Shown here one piece after another: positions 25,707-43,374 of a stretch of 51,335 nt of DNA. The DNA comes from Lentilactobacillus raoultii (GTDB lineage Bacteria; Bacillota; Bacilli; Lactobacillales; Lactobacillaceae). The position numbers and the translations under genes were made by a program. A model generated the notes under the pieces. The model was not told the DNA's origin, ran no database searches, and saw only the letters and a list, made by a program, of their open reading frames with translations. How positions within the stretch are numbered: the first letter of the stretch is position 1; each line of letters starts with the position of its first letter. Location: NCBI RefSeq assembly GCF_900411375.1, contig NZ_LS422981.1, positions 1 to 51,335 of the forward strand, read 5' to 3'.

Positions 25707-25750
25707 AATTTATTTAATGATAAACTACTATATATCAGCAAAAACACTGT

Positions 25751-25840
25751 TCGGTTGGTAGTCCGGACACGGTGAATTCAAACGCCGTCAGTATCCTTCC
25801 TCTCGGGTCGTCCAGTTGATAATCATTATTAAGGGAGGGC
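25751..25840 (+). promoter_or_regulatory. Structured 5' leader of yjdF, probable yjdF riboswitch
   Basis: The leader of a YjdF-family gene folds. CGGTTGG at 25752-25758 pairs with CCAGTTG at 25812-25818 (wobbles included), enclosing a hairpin in which ACGGTG (25769-25774) pairs with CGCCGT (25783-25788) around an AATTCAAA loop. The enclosed C-rich segment ends just before the GGGAGG ribosome site at 25833-25838. A yjdF RNA class upstream of yjdF genes, reported to respond to azaaromatic compounds, is known in Firmicutes. Assignment rests on gene context and structure, not on a model search. Confidence 0.65.
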
Positions 25841-25845
25841 TAACA

Positions 25846-26271
25846 ATGATGAATATTGTTAGTGGAACGTTAACTGTAACTTTTGATCCACCCTTTTACA
25901 AGGGAATTTTCGAATGTCATTTTGCCAGGAAATATCAAGTGGCTCAAATTACTTTTGGTCCTTCAGAGCCAACCACTCGTCAGATCGAAAGTTTTCTGCT
26001 GCACCGTTGGAAATCCTTGAGCTTTTTTGAGACTAGTCAAGAGGCATTAAAGTCGATTAAAAAAGTCAACCCTAAACGACTTCAGCGACTTGCCAGCAAA
26101 AATATCCAAGCAACAGGGATTGGTACCAAGGCACAACGAGCACTTAACCGGCAACACGAGGCCCGAAAACAGTCCCATCAACAACACTGCAAGATGCTAA
26201 AGGATCAACATAAACAGTTAATTTACCAGAAAAAGCGTCAGAAACACTTGGAAAAACACAAAGGACACTAG
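25846..26271 (+). CDS. yjdF: YjdF-family (DUF2992) protein
   Basis: 141 residues; start at the first of two adjacent ATGs after GGGAGG. N-terminal half: SGTLTVTFDPPFYKGIFE, ARKYQVAQITFGPSEPTTRQIESFLLHRW, the YjdF pattern in which a beta hairpin binds around FY.G and is followed by the E..FLL stretch. The C-terminal half is highly basic and Gln/His-rich (HEARKQSHQQHCKMLKDQHKQ, KKRQKHLEKHKGH), also usual for the family and possibly nucleic-acid binding. Function is not established; a role with aromatic compounds is suggested by the riboswitch class. Shares its terminator with the former 3' end of the ABC permease gene. Confidence 0.8.
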   Translation: MMNIVSGTLTVTFDPPFYKGIFECHFARKYQVAQITFGPSEPTTRQIESFLLHRWKSLSFFETSQEALKSIKKVNPKRLQRLASKNIQATGIGTKAQRALNRQHEARKQSHQQHCKMLKDQHKQLIYQKKRQKHLEKHKGH

Positions 26272-33680: not shown

Positions 33681-33713
33681 TAAAGTGTATTCCTCGCGTT
33701 TCAATTCGTTAAA

Positions 33714-33754
33714 AACAAAGAGGCTGCGGCAAATTCACTTGTCTCAGCCTCTAA
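33714..33754 (-). terminator. Intrinsic terminator in the leader of the ABC-F gene
   Basis: On the minus strand AGAGGCTG pairs with CAGCCTCT around an 18-base loop and is followed by TTGTTTTT. It lies between the repeat array at 33811-34103 and the ABC-F gene. It may end the upstream phosphatase-plus-array transcript, or act as an attenuator for the ABC-F gene. Confidence 0.75.
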
Positions 33755-33810
33755 CATCTGTTACTAAATCTATCATAGATATAGCGAATTAGCAATAGCG
33801 TCGAGTTGGC

Positions 33811-33854
33811 TGACGCCTTAGCATCCGGGTGTTAACCGCTTGGCTCCGCTCACT
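33811..33854 (-). repeat. Structured intergenic repeat, partial copy (unit 0)
   Basis: Only the portion matching the outer part of the element, from CCTTAGCATCC to CCGCTCACT on the plus strand, is present. It directly abuts unit 1. The opposite arm has been lost or replaced by a short GCGTC/GACGC hairpin at about 33798-33816. Confidence 0.75.
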
Positions 33855-33855
33855 A

Positions 33856-33977
33856 CTTAGGACAGCTGCGCCAAACAGCACCACTCCATATAAGGGATCG
33901 ATTGAAAAAATCCAAGACCAGGATTTCCCCAATCGACGCCTTATATTCCAGGTGCTAACCGCTTGGCTCCGCTCACT
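33856..33977 (-). repeat. Structured intergenic repeat, unit 1
   Basis: About 122 bp, repeating with a period of 126 bp. Written on the minus strand it starts AGTGAGCGGAGCCAAGCGG and ends AGCTGTCCTAAG. Four nested stems: GCCAA/TTGGC, GCACC/GGTGC, ATATAAGG/CCTTATAT and a long apical stem TCGATTG/CAATCGA extended by AAATCC/GGATTT. Bases differ from unit 2 in each stem but pairing is kept. Confidence 0.85.
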
Positions 33978-33981
33978 TTCT

Positions 33982-34103
33982 CTTAGGACAACTCCCAAAA
34001 GCAACACCACTCCTGCTAAGAGATCAATCTGAAAAATCCAAACCCAGGATTTCCCAGATTGACGTCTTAGCATCCGGGTGTTAACCGCTTTTGTCCGTTC
34101 ACT
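33982..34103 (-). repeat. Structured intergenic repeat, unit 2
   Basis: Same architecture as unit 1. Stems CAAAAGC/GCTTTTG, AACACC/GGTGTT, GCTAAGA/TCTTAGC and TCAATCTG/CAGATTGA extended by AAATCC/GGATTT around a TGGGTTT loop. It begins 2 bases after the stop codon of the phosphatase gene on the same strand. Confidence 0.85.
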
Positions 34104-34105
34104 TT

Positions 34106-34768
34106 TTATTTAATCTCTCCCAATTTATTTGCCCACTCGACTTTGATATCGTCATCGGTAATGATCAGTTTCGTGATCGCACCATTCGCGATTGGGACCC
34201 CCGTGTCCAGATCCGGCGCATAACGATCGACAATCGAGCGAATCGTCATGCCATGGGAAACGATCAAAATCTGTTGGCCATCTTCCGTATTTTGACGAAT
34301 CTTATCAAAGCCAAAGTTCAGGCGTTCCCAAAACATCGCGTTATTTTCGGCATTGTTATAAAGATCAGCCCGATGAATTAAATCTCGGGCCCGCTCCAAA
34401 CCAAAGTCTTTCAAGACTTCTTTTTCAGACGTTTTTTGGACTTGAGCACCCACAAACTGCCACATTTGATTAAGGTCATTGCCTTCAAAATAGCCGTGGA
34501 ACTGCTCCCGTAATTCTGGGTATTGATAGCTGACGATGTTCATATTATGAGGATTGGCCCGCAAAATCAGCCGAGCCGTATCAATTGCTCTTCCCGAGTC
34601 ACTGGAAAAGGCAGCGTTAAAGTTAACCCCTTTAAGCCGTTCACCAGCATTTTTAGCATCTCGAATCCCTTTTTCAGTAAGCGGTGAATCAATCCATCCC
34701 TGAACCTTATTATATAAATTCATATAAGTCTGCCCATGGCGGACAAGATATGCTGTGACTTTTTTCAC
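34106..34768 (-). CDS. Histidine phosphatase (phosphoglycerate-mutase-like)
   Basis: 220 residues from the GTG at 34766-34768 (MKKVTAYLVRHGQT) with GAGG 9 bases upstream; the longer reading is unsupported. The catalytic motif LVRHGQT carries the phosphorylated His, SSDSGRAIDTARLI and ELREQFHGYFEGN follow, and the second His is in LIVSHGMTIRSIV. Such proteins hydrolyse phosphate esters, e.g. sugar phosphates or 3-phosphoglycerate-like substrates; the exact substrate is unknown. The stop codon is 2 bases from the start of the structured repeat array, which appears to form its 3' UTR. Confidence 0.85.
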   Translation of the reverse strand: MKKVTAYLVRHGQTYMNLYNKVQGWIDSPLTEKGIRDAKNAGERLKGVNFNAAFSSDSGRAIDTARLILRANPHNMNIVSYQYPELREQFHGYFEGNDLNQMWQFVGAQVQKTSEKEVLKDFGLERARDLIHRADLYNNAENNAMFWERLNFGFDKIRQNTEDGQQILIVSHGMTIRSIVDRYAPDLDTGVPIANGAITKLIITDDDIKVEWANKLGEIK

Positions 34769-34798
34769 GAGAATCAGCCTCATTTCGTATTTTATCAA

Positions 34799-35027
34799 AA
34801 CTGTGTACGATTTAAGTATAACGAATCACCAGAAAAGAATCATCAAAAAGCCATCATTTTTCGCTAATCAATAATGATCATGCCAACTATTTAATTAACT
34901 AGTAAAGCATAATTACATGATTATATTGATTTTTATTGTTATACTATTAATAAATAGTTAACTGTTTTCGAAAAATAAGCACTTTGCTTAAATATCTACA
35001 GTTACAACGATGAAAGGAGCCACTGAT
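34799..35027. other. AT-rich intergenic region upstream of the ZIP transporter gene
   Basis: Divergent control region. A short palindrome AGTTAACT within AATAGTTAACTGTT lies near 34955-34968 and could be an operator. TATACT occurs near 34940. No convincing -35/-10 pair and no metal-box match could be fixed. Confidence 0.3.
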
Positions 35028-35846
35028 GTGACTTATTTACTAAAATTTTCACCGTGGCAGCAAGCACTTTTGGCCACCCTTTTTACCTGGGGTGTCACTG
35101 CACTGGGCGCCACGTTTGTTTTCGGCTTTAAAACCATTCGTGACAGCGCGTTGGCAATCATGTATGGCTTTGCGGCTGGCGTCATGATTGCAGCCTCGTT
35201 TTGGTCGCTGCTGGATCCAGCCATTGAGTTGGCCAGAGAATTGGACAAAGTGCCATGGTTAGTCGTTTCAAGTGGCTTTATCCTCGGTGGCCTTCTCCTA
35301 TACTTGGCCGACAAAGCGATCCCACTACTTCAGATTAACCAGCAAGCAAAGCACCAACCATCTCGCAAAGTCAAACAGACCATTCTCTTGGTTTTTTCAA
35401 TTACTCTGCATAACATCCCGGAAGGTTTGGCCGTCGGCGTGGCTTTTGGTGCCATTCAGGCAGCCAGCGGCACCCAGCACCTCAACATGCTTCTGGCGGC
35501 CGTCACCGTGGCGATTGGCATTGGTTTGCAAAACTTTCCCGAAGGCGCCGCGGTGGCCATTCCATTGCGTCAAAACGGGATGAGTCGGACTAAGGCTTTT
35601 TTCTATGGTCAAGCAAGTGGGATGGTCGAACCCGTCGCCGGGATCCTTGGTGCTTTGCTGGTCACCTACGTTAATCAGATTCTGCCATACGCCTTGGCAT
35701 TCGCGGCCGGTGCCATGATCTATGTCGCTTGCAAGGAATTGATCCCAGAAGCCCACGCCCGAACCAAAGCAGAATCCCACTGGGCAATCTTAGGAATTAT
35801 GGCTGGCTTTACGCTAATGATGGTTTTGGACGTTGCACTGGGATAA
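35028..35846 (+). CDS. ZIP-family divalent metal transporter
   Basis: 272 residues. GTG start chosen from AAGGAG at 35014-35019 (spacing 8); the ATG at 35010 overlaps it. Eight hydrophobic segments. The metal-site helices carry HNIPEGLAVGVAFG (TM4) and LQNFPEGAAVAIP (TM5), the ZIP/GufA signature, where His and Glu bind zinc or a related ion. A short hydrophilic loop between TM3 and TM4 includes QQAKHQPSRK. It would import Zn, Mn or Fe into the cell. Monocistronic or cotranscribed with the small membrane protein 95 bases downstream. Confidence 0.9.
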   Translation: MTYLLKFSPWQQALLATLFTWGVTALGATFVFGFKTIRDSALAIMYGFAAGVMIAASFWSLLDPAIELARELDKVPWLVVSSGFILGGLLLYLADKAIPLLQINQQAKHQPSRKVKQTILLVFSITLHNIPEGLAVGVAFGAIQAASGTQHLNMLLAAVTVAIGIGLQNFPEGAAVAIPLRQNGMSRTKAFFYGQASGMVEPVAGILGALLVTYVNQILPYALAFAAGAMIYVACKELIPEAHARTKAESHWAILGIMAGFTLMMVLDVALG

Positions 35847-35941
35847 CCCTAATTTTCAATTTAAATGAAAAAGTATCATTGCTTTATTTTCAGTTATGAT
35901 CGGCTTAGAATGCCTTTGAAATCCACAAGGAGGTGTTTCAA

Positions 35942-36466
35942 ATGTTAATGACTAACCATTCATCCAAGCCGTTGGAAGTCGTGTATGACATTGCGATGGT
36001 GCTGGCCATCCTTTTTGGCATCACATTTGCCCTGTTTTTGATCACATCAGTTATTTGCTTGCTATTATTATTTATCCCAGCTGTCCATTCATTTGTGAAT
36101 CAAACATTGAATGGTGCCGGCATCTCTAATCCCGTCATCTGGGAAATTCTTTTGTTCTGGCTATACGTTGTGATTTTGCTTGGCATGCGGTTTCTAATGA
36201 TCTTCGGCCTATTTAAACTATCAGGAAATCTACGATCAAAGGCCATCTTCAGTCAGGAAAATTGGGCTGATTTTAAACTCATTCTGGTTTCTTACAGCAT
36301 CTATGCCATCGTTCAATATATTGGATCAGTCATGAATCAAATTTTTCACTTTACTAACGGTGGTACGGCCAATAGCCCAACCATTCCAATCCTTATATGG
36401 CTAATCCTTTACACGGTCTATCTAATTTTCAAGTCTAACCAAGAACCCACTGAGCCTTCAGCTTAG
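35942..36466 (+). CDS. DUF2975-like membrane protein
   Basis: 174 residues from the ATG with AAGGAGGT at 35927-35934. Four hydrophobic segments: VYDIAMVLAILFGITFALFLITSVICLLLLFI, ILLFWLYVVILLGMRFLMIFGLF, LILVSYSIYAIVQYIG and IPILIWLILYTVYLIF. The middle stretch LFKLSGNLRSKAIFSQENWADFKLI, with a FSxEN motif before the third segment, resembles DUF2975 proteins, which often precede a small XRE regulator; none is adjacent. Function unknown. Confidence 0.6.
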   Translation: MLMTNHSSKPLEVVYDIAMVLAILFGITFALFLITSVICLLLLFIPAVHSFVNQTLNGAGISNPVIWEILLFWLYVVILLGMRFLMIFGLFKLSGNLRSKAIFSQENWADFKLILVSYSIYAIVQYIGSVMNQIFHFTNGGTANSPTIPILIWLILYTVYLIFKSNQEPTEPSA

Positions 36467-36500
36467 TTACAAGTTACAAGTTACAGGTAACAAGTAACAA
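36465..36500 (+). repeat. Short TTACAAG/GTAACAAG tandem repeats
   Basis: Just after the stop codon, the heptamer GTTACAA is repeated about three times and followed by GTAACAA copies, giving a locally symmetric tract. It may be slippage-prone; no function inferred. Confidence 0.6.
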
Positions 36501-36510
36501 GTCATTCAAA

Positions 36511-36556
36511 AAATTGAGCTACGATTTCCCAAGGCAAGGAAACCGTAGCTCAATTT
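36511..36556 (-). terminator. Strong terminator after the second repeat array
   Basis: AAATTGAGCTACG pairs perfectly with CGTAGCTCAATTT, and TTTCC with GGAAA inside. On the minus strand it is followed by TTTTTTG. It lies right after repeat units 4 and 3, ending the transcript from the aldo/keto reductase gene. Confidence 0.9.
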
Positions 36557-36665
36557 AGGACAGCTCCTTCAAATCCACTGCGTCTAAGGGATCATTCTGA
36601 AAAATTCAGGATTTCCCAGAATGACGCCTTAGTCTTCGTAGATTAACCGCTTGAATCCTCTCACT
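36555..36665 (-). repeat. Structured intergenic repeat, unit 3
   Basis: About 111 bp, shorter in the apical loop. On the minus strand: AGTGAGAGGATTCAAGCGG to AGCTGTCCTAA. Stems TTCAA/TTGAA, AATCTAC/GTGGATT, CTAAGG/CCTTAG and TCATTCTG/CAGAATGA extended by GAAAT/ATTTTT. Each differs in sequence from other copies but still pairs. Confidence 0.85.
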
Positions 36666-36669
36666 GTTC

Positions 36670-36788
36670 TTAGGACAGCTCCTCCCAGCAAACTCCTACA
36701 TGTAAGGGATCAATTGGCAAAATCCAAAACAGGATTTTCCCAATTGACGCCTTACACTCCGGAGTCTAACCGCTGGGATCCGCTCACT
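36670..36788 (-). repeat. Structured intergenic repeat, unit 4
   Basis: About 119 bp. Stems TCCCAGC/GCTGGGA, AGACTCC/GGAGTTT, TGTAAGG/CCTTACA and TCAATTGG/CCAATTGA extended by AAAATCC/GGATTTT. It starts 6 bases after the stop codon of the aldo/keto reductase gene on the same strand. Confidence 0.85.
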
Positions 36789-36794
36789 GTTTTT

Positions 36795-37652
36795 TTAATG
36801 ATGTGGATATTGATGACCAATCTCGTAAACCATTTCAGGTTCTTGACTGAGCCGAGTGTTTCGATTCAAGTCATCTACTTGTTTCATTTCGTCAGCACTT
36901 AGTTCAAAATCATAAATATCGGCGTTTTGCTTAATTCGCTGTGGATGAACCGACTTGGGGATAAAGGCGTCACCGCGCTGCAAATGCCAACGCAAAATGA
37001 CCTGAGCAGCCGATTTACCGTGGGCCTTGGCTAATTTCACCAGTACCGGATCATCGAAGGCCTTGCCGCGTCCCAGTGGTGCCCAAGCCTGAGTGACAAT
37101 TTGATTTTCCCGATTAAAATCAATCATCGCTGGCTGGGCTAAGTAAGGATGAACTTCCAGTTGATTAACCACCGGCATTTCATTGGCTTTGGTTGCTAAG
37201 TATTGAAGGTGCAGCATGCCATAATTACTCGTGCCAATCGACTTTACCAATCCCTGTTCCTTCAATTTTTCAAAGGCCCGCCAAGTTTCAAAAAAGTGGG
37301 TATGAATCGGCCAGTGAACCAGCAGCAAATCAACATAATCCAATTGCAGCTTTTTTAATGACGTCTCAAACGAGGCCATGACCTGATCATAGCCCTGATT
37401 TTCTTCAGCAATTTTAGTGGTAATAAACACGTCATCCCGGTTAACGTTTAATTCCTTGATCGCCTTACCAACTGCCGCTTCATTTCCATACATTTGAGCG
37501 GTATCAAATAACCGATAGCCATCATCATAAGCTGACTTCACCGACTGAATCAGTTGGGCTTCATCGGTCATTTTATAAACGCCCAACCCCTGAATCGGCA
37601 TTTGATTACCATCAGCCAACTTCACTCTCGAATCAATTCTCTTTGTTGTCAT
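36795..37652 (-). CDS. Aldo/keto reductase
   Basis: 285 residues; ATG with GGAGGA 6 bases upstream. The catalytic tetrad of the family is visible: Asp and Tyr in RLFDTAQMYGNE (about residues 50 and 55), Lys in ITTKI (about 80) and His in LLVHWPIH (about 113). The NADPH-binding C-terminus reads IPKSVHPQRIKQN. It reduces aldehydes or ketones, e.g. 2,5-diketogluconate-reductase-type substrates. It lies 14 bases downstream of the acetyltransferase gene, so they form one operon. The repeat array (units 4 and 3) and a terminator follow immediately. Confidence 0.92.
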   Translation of the reverse strand: MTTKRIDSRVKLADGNQMPIQGLGVYKMTDEAQLIQSVKSAYDDGYRLFDTAQMYGNEAAVGKAIKELNVNRDDVFITTKIAEENQGYDQVMASFETSLKKLQLDYVDLLLVHWPIHTHFFETWRAFEKLKEQGLVKSIGTSNYGMLHLQYLATKANEMPVVNQLEVHPYLAQPAMIDFNRENQIVTQAWAPLGRGKAFDDPVLVKLAKAHGKSAAQVILRWHLQRGDAFIPKSVHPQRIKQNADIYDFELSADEMKQVDDLNRNTRLSQEPEMVYEIGHQYPHH

Positions 37653-37666
37653 CAAATTCCTCCGTT

Positions 37667-43203: not shown

Positions 43204-43273
43204 CGTAGCCCTCGCTTACTTGACTTCCCCTTGAAATACTTTTGCTAAACGGTATTCGTTAGTATGTGCAGAT

Positions 43274-43374
43274 CTCCCAAAAGCAGCACCACTCCCAACC
43301 CGAAAAATTCAAACCCAGGATTTCCCAGATTGACGTCTTAGCATCCGGTTGCTAACCGCTTTTGTCCGTTCACT
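43274..43374 (-). repeat. Structured intergenic repeat, degenerate copy (unit 5)
   Basis: Nearly identical to unit 2 over the CCCAAAAGCAGCACCACTCC arm and the AAACCCAGGATTTCCCAGATTGACGTCTTAGC arm, but about 12 bases of the distal arm (GCTAAGAGATCAATCT region) are lost, so the apical stem can no longer form fully. Same orientation as the other copies. Confidence 0.8.

Follow-up and report, generated by a model that had tools for sequence, protein, structure and literature searches.

A strand-specific structured repeat of Lactobacillaceae whose tandem arrays tend to begin flush at signals of neighbouring genes

EFAR of Enterococcus faecalis are repeats of about 170 bp with stem-loops that replace terminators. 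REP, REPIN and BIME elements, which are mobilised by RAYT, are intergenic, structured, high in copy number and often found behind genes, and are built on a GTAG-tagged palindrome of 20–40 bp. According to PMC3733652, GTAG REPs frequently provide flanking ORFs with their TAG stop, CGTC-tagged REPs are apparently without a dedicated transposase, and RUP, NEMIS and ERIC are examples of MITEs. The latter are small, non-coding and foldable, often lie next to genes, and are defined by terminal inverted repeats of 15–30 bp and by target-site duplications. CRISPR arrays consist of constant repeats with unrelated spacers between them and are accompanied by cas genes.

We analysed a stretch of 51,335 nt from Lentilactobacillus raoultii (the window; contig NZ_LS422981.1, positions 1 to 51,335) and found a structured repeat of about 121 nt that occurs there as two tandem arrays and one solitary unit (Table 1). 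All units of array 1 (33811–34103) lie on the minus strand, and on that strand each unit reads AGTGAGCGGAnnCAAGCGGTTA...GCTGTCCTAA. An earlier note, made from the letters of this DNA, had described two full units and a partial one with a 126-bp period, a long multi-stem hairpin in each unit, and a series of stem exchanges across four units. Profile searches recovered the full and partial units, all of the quoted exchanges are present, and the predicted fold of 33856–34103 has z-scores of -9.67 on the minus and -9.82 on the plus strand, matched by 0/200 shuffles on either. To the stems already listed we add a 3-bp basal helix, AGC/GCT, which also occurs as AAC/GTT, AGT/ACT and TGC/GCA. The gene upstream of array 1 encodes a member of the histidine phosphatase superfamily (PF00300), and its TAA lies 2 nt before the 5' edge of the array. 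By eye, a terminator-like inverted repeat stands directly at the 3' edge of array 2. Separately, a hairpin at 33719–33752, AGAGGCTG...CAGCCTCT, followed by a minus-strand T-rich tract, lies between array 1 and an ABC gene, and similar hairpins are found at the same place in two congeneric genomes (G005 and G007).

Table 1. Repeat units and adjoining signals in the window.
Feature	Position	Strand	Basis or remark
Array 1, first full unit (5'-most in its own reading direction)	33983..34103	-	nhmmer; CM 1-120, 127.9 bits
Array 1, second full unit	33857..33977	-	CM 131.6 bits
Array 1, third unit, 3'-truncated (model positions 2-45)	33811..33854	-	nhmmer
TAA stop of co-oriented gene 34106-34798, upstream of array 1	34106..34108	-	ORF list
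Array 2, first full unit	36670..36788	-	CM 130.3 bits
Array 2, second full unit	36555..36665	-	CM 93 bits
TAA stop of aldo/keto reductase gene (36795-37655)	36795..36797	-	6 nt before array 2 5' edge
Inverted repeat and minus-strand T-run, terminator-like	36507..36556 (approximate)		by eye from sequence
Lone decayed unit	43273..43374 (CM: 43265-43374)	-	nhmmer 67.7 bits; CM 54.2 bits

The repeat family is REP- and MITE-like in behaviour but fails tested defining features of each. The earlier note had recognised no named riboswitch, T-box, REP or CRISPR, and the comparisons agree. No Rfam family, riboswitches and T-boxes included, reaches its gathering score on the repeat; the sole match in the window is a yjdF/azaaromatic riboswitch at 25728–25831 on the plus strand (74.5 bits), which overlaps the start of a 151-aa ORF (25816–26271). 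Relaxing the threshold to E<=10 over 33700–36900 gave four sub-threshold hits, including two to MIR405 (one per strand, 25 bits against a cut-off of 102) that overlap the hairpin beside array 2. Unlike a CRISPR array, the whole unit is homologous and the gaps between units are 0–5 nt. Unlike REPs and REPINs, the unit is about 121 nt long, begins with AGTG and forms direct head-to-tail arrays, and no Y1 transposase (PF01797) was found in the L. raoultii genome. CGTC-tagged REPs share with the repeat that no transposase partner is apparent, but they are short palindromes with CGTC at one end, whereas here GCGTC is internal and typical of no subtype but that of the own genome. In place of the terminal inverted repeats of MITEs, the unit has only the 3-bp helix near its ends, which is followed by an internal loop. 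The earlier note had set against its own reading a match to a known IS-derived MITE family with full target-site duplications at every copy; no target-site duplication was found across 151 arrays, the suffix match being 3.45 against 3.34 +/- 0.08 by chance in a test that the fuzzy 3' edge weakens. EFAR, compared by description only, is likewise a structured repeat of a Firmicute, and array 1 sits where G005 has, by eye, a terminator-like hairpin in the array's place.

The unit model describes a rod in which P1 (3 bp) is followed by an internal loop with GGA, P2, a loop with GGTTA, P3, a further loop, P4, P5 and an apical loop. Three units fold well as DNA too, on both strands. Pairing was scored over 35 pairs, leaving out P3, which is misaligned in the automatic alignment. 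Among the matches in the L. raoultii genome (n = 80), 96.8% of pair cells are paired, 24 pairs show double changes and the covariation score is 0.481, compared with 0.054–0.108 for slid partners and an average of 0.181 over 500 shuffles. The corresponding values are 98.0%, 25 pairs and 0.537 for the relatives (150 of 256 matches), and 94.3%, 31 pairs and 0.830 for five other genera (43 matches, 39 distinct), the paired percentages being flattered throughout because the alignments were fitted to the model. Slid controls over the three sets gave 0.05–0.16, and the covariation score was reached by 0/500 shuffles in each, with relatedness controlled by the slid structures only; in the five-genera set single shuffles reached two lesser measures (1/500 and 6/500). 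The covariation read by eye in the earlier note is thus far above the shuffled and slid controls, and pairing is kept through compensatory changes in the own units, in those of relatives and in those of other genera.

The family is numerous and widely spread. At least 120 covariance-model matches at E<=1e-4 are present in the L. raoultii genome (3.07 Mb, 29 contigs), a lower bound from scoring 150 of 1683 candidates, and BLAST gave at least 72 places (40 of 64 candidates scored). Four congeners have at least 150 covariance-model matches each; G003, G005, G006, G009 and G017 are copy-rich like the own genome, and G010, G012, G018 and G023 gave no match. The repeat occurs in 20 of 24 genomes of the genus, in 120 of the 397 Lactobacillaceae genomes examined (19 of 40 genera) and in 21 of 295 genomes drawn from the order, eight of them outside Lactobacillaceae; the named relatives in which units occur belong to Lentilactobacillus and Pediococcus. 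A match of 73–74 nt is carried by five plasmid records of L. plantarum and one of L. parabuchneri; in the two inspected, it begins some 21 nt away from where an alpha-glucosidase gene starts on the opposite strand. Phages gave no match to the repeat. A short pattern matched 25 stretches of viral contigs; profile search found a unit in none of these, nor in the loci outside Lentilactobacillus and Pediococcus that the search for named relatives had given. A sister subfamily (L225 in G004, and L256–L284), whose ends are AGAGTGCGGA...GGAGCACGTTTCG, has the core GCGGTTAG and the rod structure in common with the repeat and occurs often in the loci retrieved from other genera. The literature search found no description of the repeat family in the text it reached.

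Orthologous sites in sister species lack the arrays, which identifies the arrays as insertions. An orthologous array of the family is absent at the array 1 site in 13 of the 14 congeneric gaps listed; G009 has an independent three-unit array elsewhere, behind the terminator of the same gap, and G008 and G004 have differently built elements. Array 2 is absent in G005, G007, G008, G022 and G003, while G004 has another subtype. None of the five arrays of L055 (A to E) has an orthologous counterpart in those relatives that allowed a comparison. Arrays A and B are lacking in 4/4 relatives (for B, with a masked stretch nearby in G007). C is absent in G007; G005 has a different element, G015 has other repeats and G004 offers no comparable gap. 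D is absent in G005 and G015, with another subtype in G004 and, in G007, a family unit elsewhere in the gap in the opposite orientation. E is absent in G007 and G015; G005 has there a fragment of another unit, and G004 gave no pair. The site C ortholog in G015 (L318) is filled by a differently built composite repeat, GCTCCGACGCCCGC.... Comparison of the L. raoultii locus L036 with L112 of L. dabitei places an insertion exactly at a stop codon: the protein end HRNN is kept, and is closed by TAA without the array and by the element's TAG with it. Some arrays are common to species at the same place, with differing units. Units at different loci are up to 97.5% alike in the own genome and 99.2% in relatives; the mean identity of the 77 own full units is 73%, from which most copies are old.

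We therefore favour, with moderate confidence, a mobile element as the origin of the arrays: a non-autonomous, strand-specific hairpin with a unit of about 121 nt, of which they are copies. The earlier note had offered a novel structured 3'-UTR RNA, an sRNA sponge and a non-autonomous mobile hairpin as candidates, and the last is the best supported of them, given the array-free sites in relatives, the many genera and the plasmid copies. Against this view count the missing target-site duplication, the age of most copies and the search for a mobilising gene, which found none. Two candidate partners were rejected as obligate because copy-rich genomes lack a profile match to them. The Y1 transposase is found in 7/24 genomes of the genus and not in the own genome, G006, G007 or G009, the last three of which have from 53 to at least 150 matches. 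A reverse transcriptase is found in 8/24, including the own genome, and not in the copy-rich G005, G006 and G009.

The placement of the arrays is asymmetric. Edge statistics cover 154 of 158 arrays (45 own, 109 from relatives), the other four having a first unit that starts beyond model position 3 or repeated flanks; neighbouring genes were called by our own script rather than taken from annotation. A co-oriented upstream gene ends within -6 to +12 of the 5' edge in 45/60 cases, against 8/77 for the 3' edge (Fisher p = 4e-15), and a divergent start codon lies 10–35 nt from the 5' edge in 50/82, against 3/65 (Fisher p = 1e-13). Own arrays are found mainly at stops (18/22, and only 3/22 at starts), and those of relatives at both (27/38 and 47/60). 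In 29 of the 45 stop-codon cases the stop is formed wholly or partly by the element (TGA 13, TAG 10, TAA 6), and an identified Shine-Dalgarno lies 4–7 nt from the 5' edge in 32/39 (mode 6, values above 8 counted as 8). Among the 19 remaining own divergent cases, ten have a strong promoter that points away from the array and whose -35 box lies no more than 10 nt from the 5' edge (shuffled mean 0.7, maximum 3 in 50 shuffles; shifted windows 1 and 1); such a promoter stands at the edge in 3/11 cases in relatives (shuffled maximum 3). Several arrays of other genera were seen by eye in stop, start or terminator contexts, and a minority of arrays fit no stop, Shine-Dalgarno or promoter context. Like REPs, the repeat is extragenic and enriched behind genes, but many other arrays lie upstream of genes. 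The 5' edge of an array thus tends to stand flush at an essential signal of its neighbour, be it stop codon, Shine-Dalgarno or -35 box, which is a new observation, and it tends to halt at whichever such signal comes first.

The 3' edge is ragged: the 5' end is nearly always complete and the 3' end often truncated. Hits starting at model position 20 or beyond were dropped in listing the arrays, and all 353 nhmmer hits were afterwards rechecked. A unit cut before model position 100 ends 24/158 arrays, and three uncovered hits start at position 15 or beyond. The last unit stops before position 118 in 41 arrays, 17 of them at 107–114, which is probably another 3' end rather than a set of truncations; in 40 of the 117 other arrays a further unit start follows the 3' edge.

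Flush placement could reflect selection rather than targeting. Insertions might occur anywhere and survive only in the small gaps left free by stop codons, promoters and Shine-Dalgarnos, a proposal that concerns placement only, is compatible with a mobile element, and has in our judgement close to an even chance of being right. The free gap in relatives is about 10 nt, by eye, at sites A and E of L055, as selection alone would have it. The 3' edge shows no comparable clustering, which speaks against selection alone even though partial units and filler blur that edge, and so does the composition of the flank: the 6 nt immediately before the 5' edge are 55% A at stops against 32–38% in controls. 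Before Shine-Dalgarnos the same 6 nt are 60% T on the gene strand against 32%. No fixed target sequence common to all contexts was found, only this A-richness, and for arrays beside Shine-Dalgarnos a search for a promoter immediately past the 3' edge gave no significant result.

Mismatches in the stems indicate which strand is selected. Selection on duplex DNA, or on either strand, should leave G·T and A·C mismatches about equal, and an excess of G·T on one fixed strand, whatever the direction of the neighbour, points to selection on that strand as RNA or single-stranded DNA. Excluding pairs with more than 15% G·T, and using 80/80 own and 150/256 relative matches, the G·T to A·C ratio was 41:6 at stop codons, 61:14 in the arrays that lie antisense next to a Shine-Dalgarno and 49:16 in the other arrays with a divergent neighbour; in two small groups it was 8:3 and 9:3, excesses that are not significant. 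Since antisense arrays have the same bias, the favoured strand is unchanged where the neighbour's mRNA would carry the other strand. The bias of these antisense copies could instead be a trace of recent insertion.

The main rival to a mobile element is an RNA selected by the host, in which the sense strand would be transcribed as 3'-UTR tails or small RNAs that bind a protein, stabilise the mRNA or act in trans, the copies having spread and now being kept for function. The very strong covariation, the conserved internal loops and a G·U pair next to the GGTTA loop that hardly varies (79/79 own, 142/149 relative and 39/39 other-genera cells) would all suit such an RNA, as would the 45/60 arrays behind co-oriented genes that begin at the stop codon. 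We nevertheless judge it unlikely, because many arrays adjoin the Shine-Dalgarno or -35 box of a gene to which they are antisense, and show the same strand bias, and because arrays are missing at orthologous sites of sister species. The 3'-UTR RNA of the earlier note suits only those copies that stand at stop codons and leaves aside the many antisense ones.

A translated mini-gene was also considered, in which a GTG, ten codons and a TAA at the start of the unit would be coupled to upstream stop codons. This frame is unbroken in 62/80 own and 140/150 aligned relative units, stop and start often overlap, as GTGA (13) or TAGTG (10), and in the 'far' class (24 own arrays) SD-like pairing stands ahead of the GTG (p = 6e-5). 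In many arrays of that class, however, the SD-like signal coincides with the spacers of divergent promoters, which explain it better; antisense arrays have no SD, a lengthened P2 (L055 at 2544) keeps pairing but breaks the frame, and the TAA lies within a conserved stem. The mini-gene was rejected on this evidence as very improbable.

Within arrays the order of units is A-B-A-B. Identity over the GGTTA–P3 core is 0.65 between adjacent units against 0.72 between different arrays, and 0.87 between units two apart (38 adjacent, 9 two-apart and 3110 different-array pairs), while at their ends adjacent units are slightly more alike than units of different arrays. The alternation is perhaps explained by the loss of identical neighbours through recombination. 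The same piece of about 30 nt, GCCAAGTAGGCTAGGCGTTTCACGGCCGTC, sits as an insertion within units from different loci of L. sunkii and L. fungorum (L079, L092), which suggests nesting or recombination between repeat families.

For the mobile hairpin that we favour, we envisage that the unit strand has to adopt a single long, rod-like hairpin whose internal loops are conserved, and that this folded strand, as single-stranded DNA or RNA, would be recognised by a putative enzyme when the unit is copied. Copying would join the exact 5' end behind an A-rich stretch, and recombination between units would afterwards enlarge the arrays and turn them over, producing the A-B-A-B patterns. The structure would be kept because only foldable units are copied, and not because every copy serves the neighbouring gene. 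More tentatively, and with considerable doubt, the family may stand for a class of mobile element of its own: a strand-specific hairpin spread across Lactobacillales by machinery that is neither Y1 transposase nor reverse transcriptase, with a precise 5' end joined flush to gene boundaries and tandem alternating units that diversify afterwards.

A family with more than 100 copies in some genomes, and present in 120 of 397 Lactobacillaceae genomes, reaches no Rfam cut-off. If the flush-edge rule holds, the edges of its arrays mark stop codons, Shine-Dalgarnos and promoters. Covariation, which is usually read as evidence of RNA function, may here record selection at the moment of copying.
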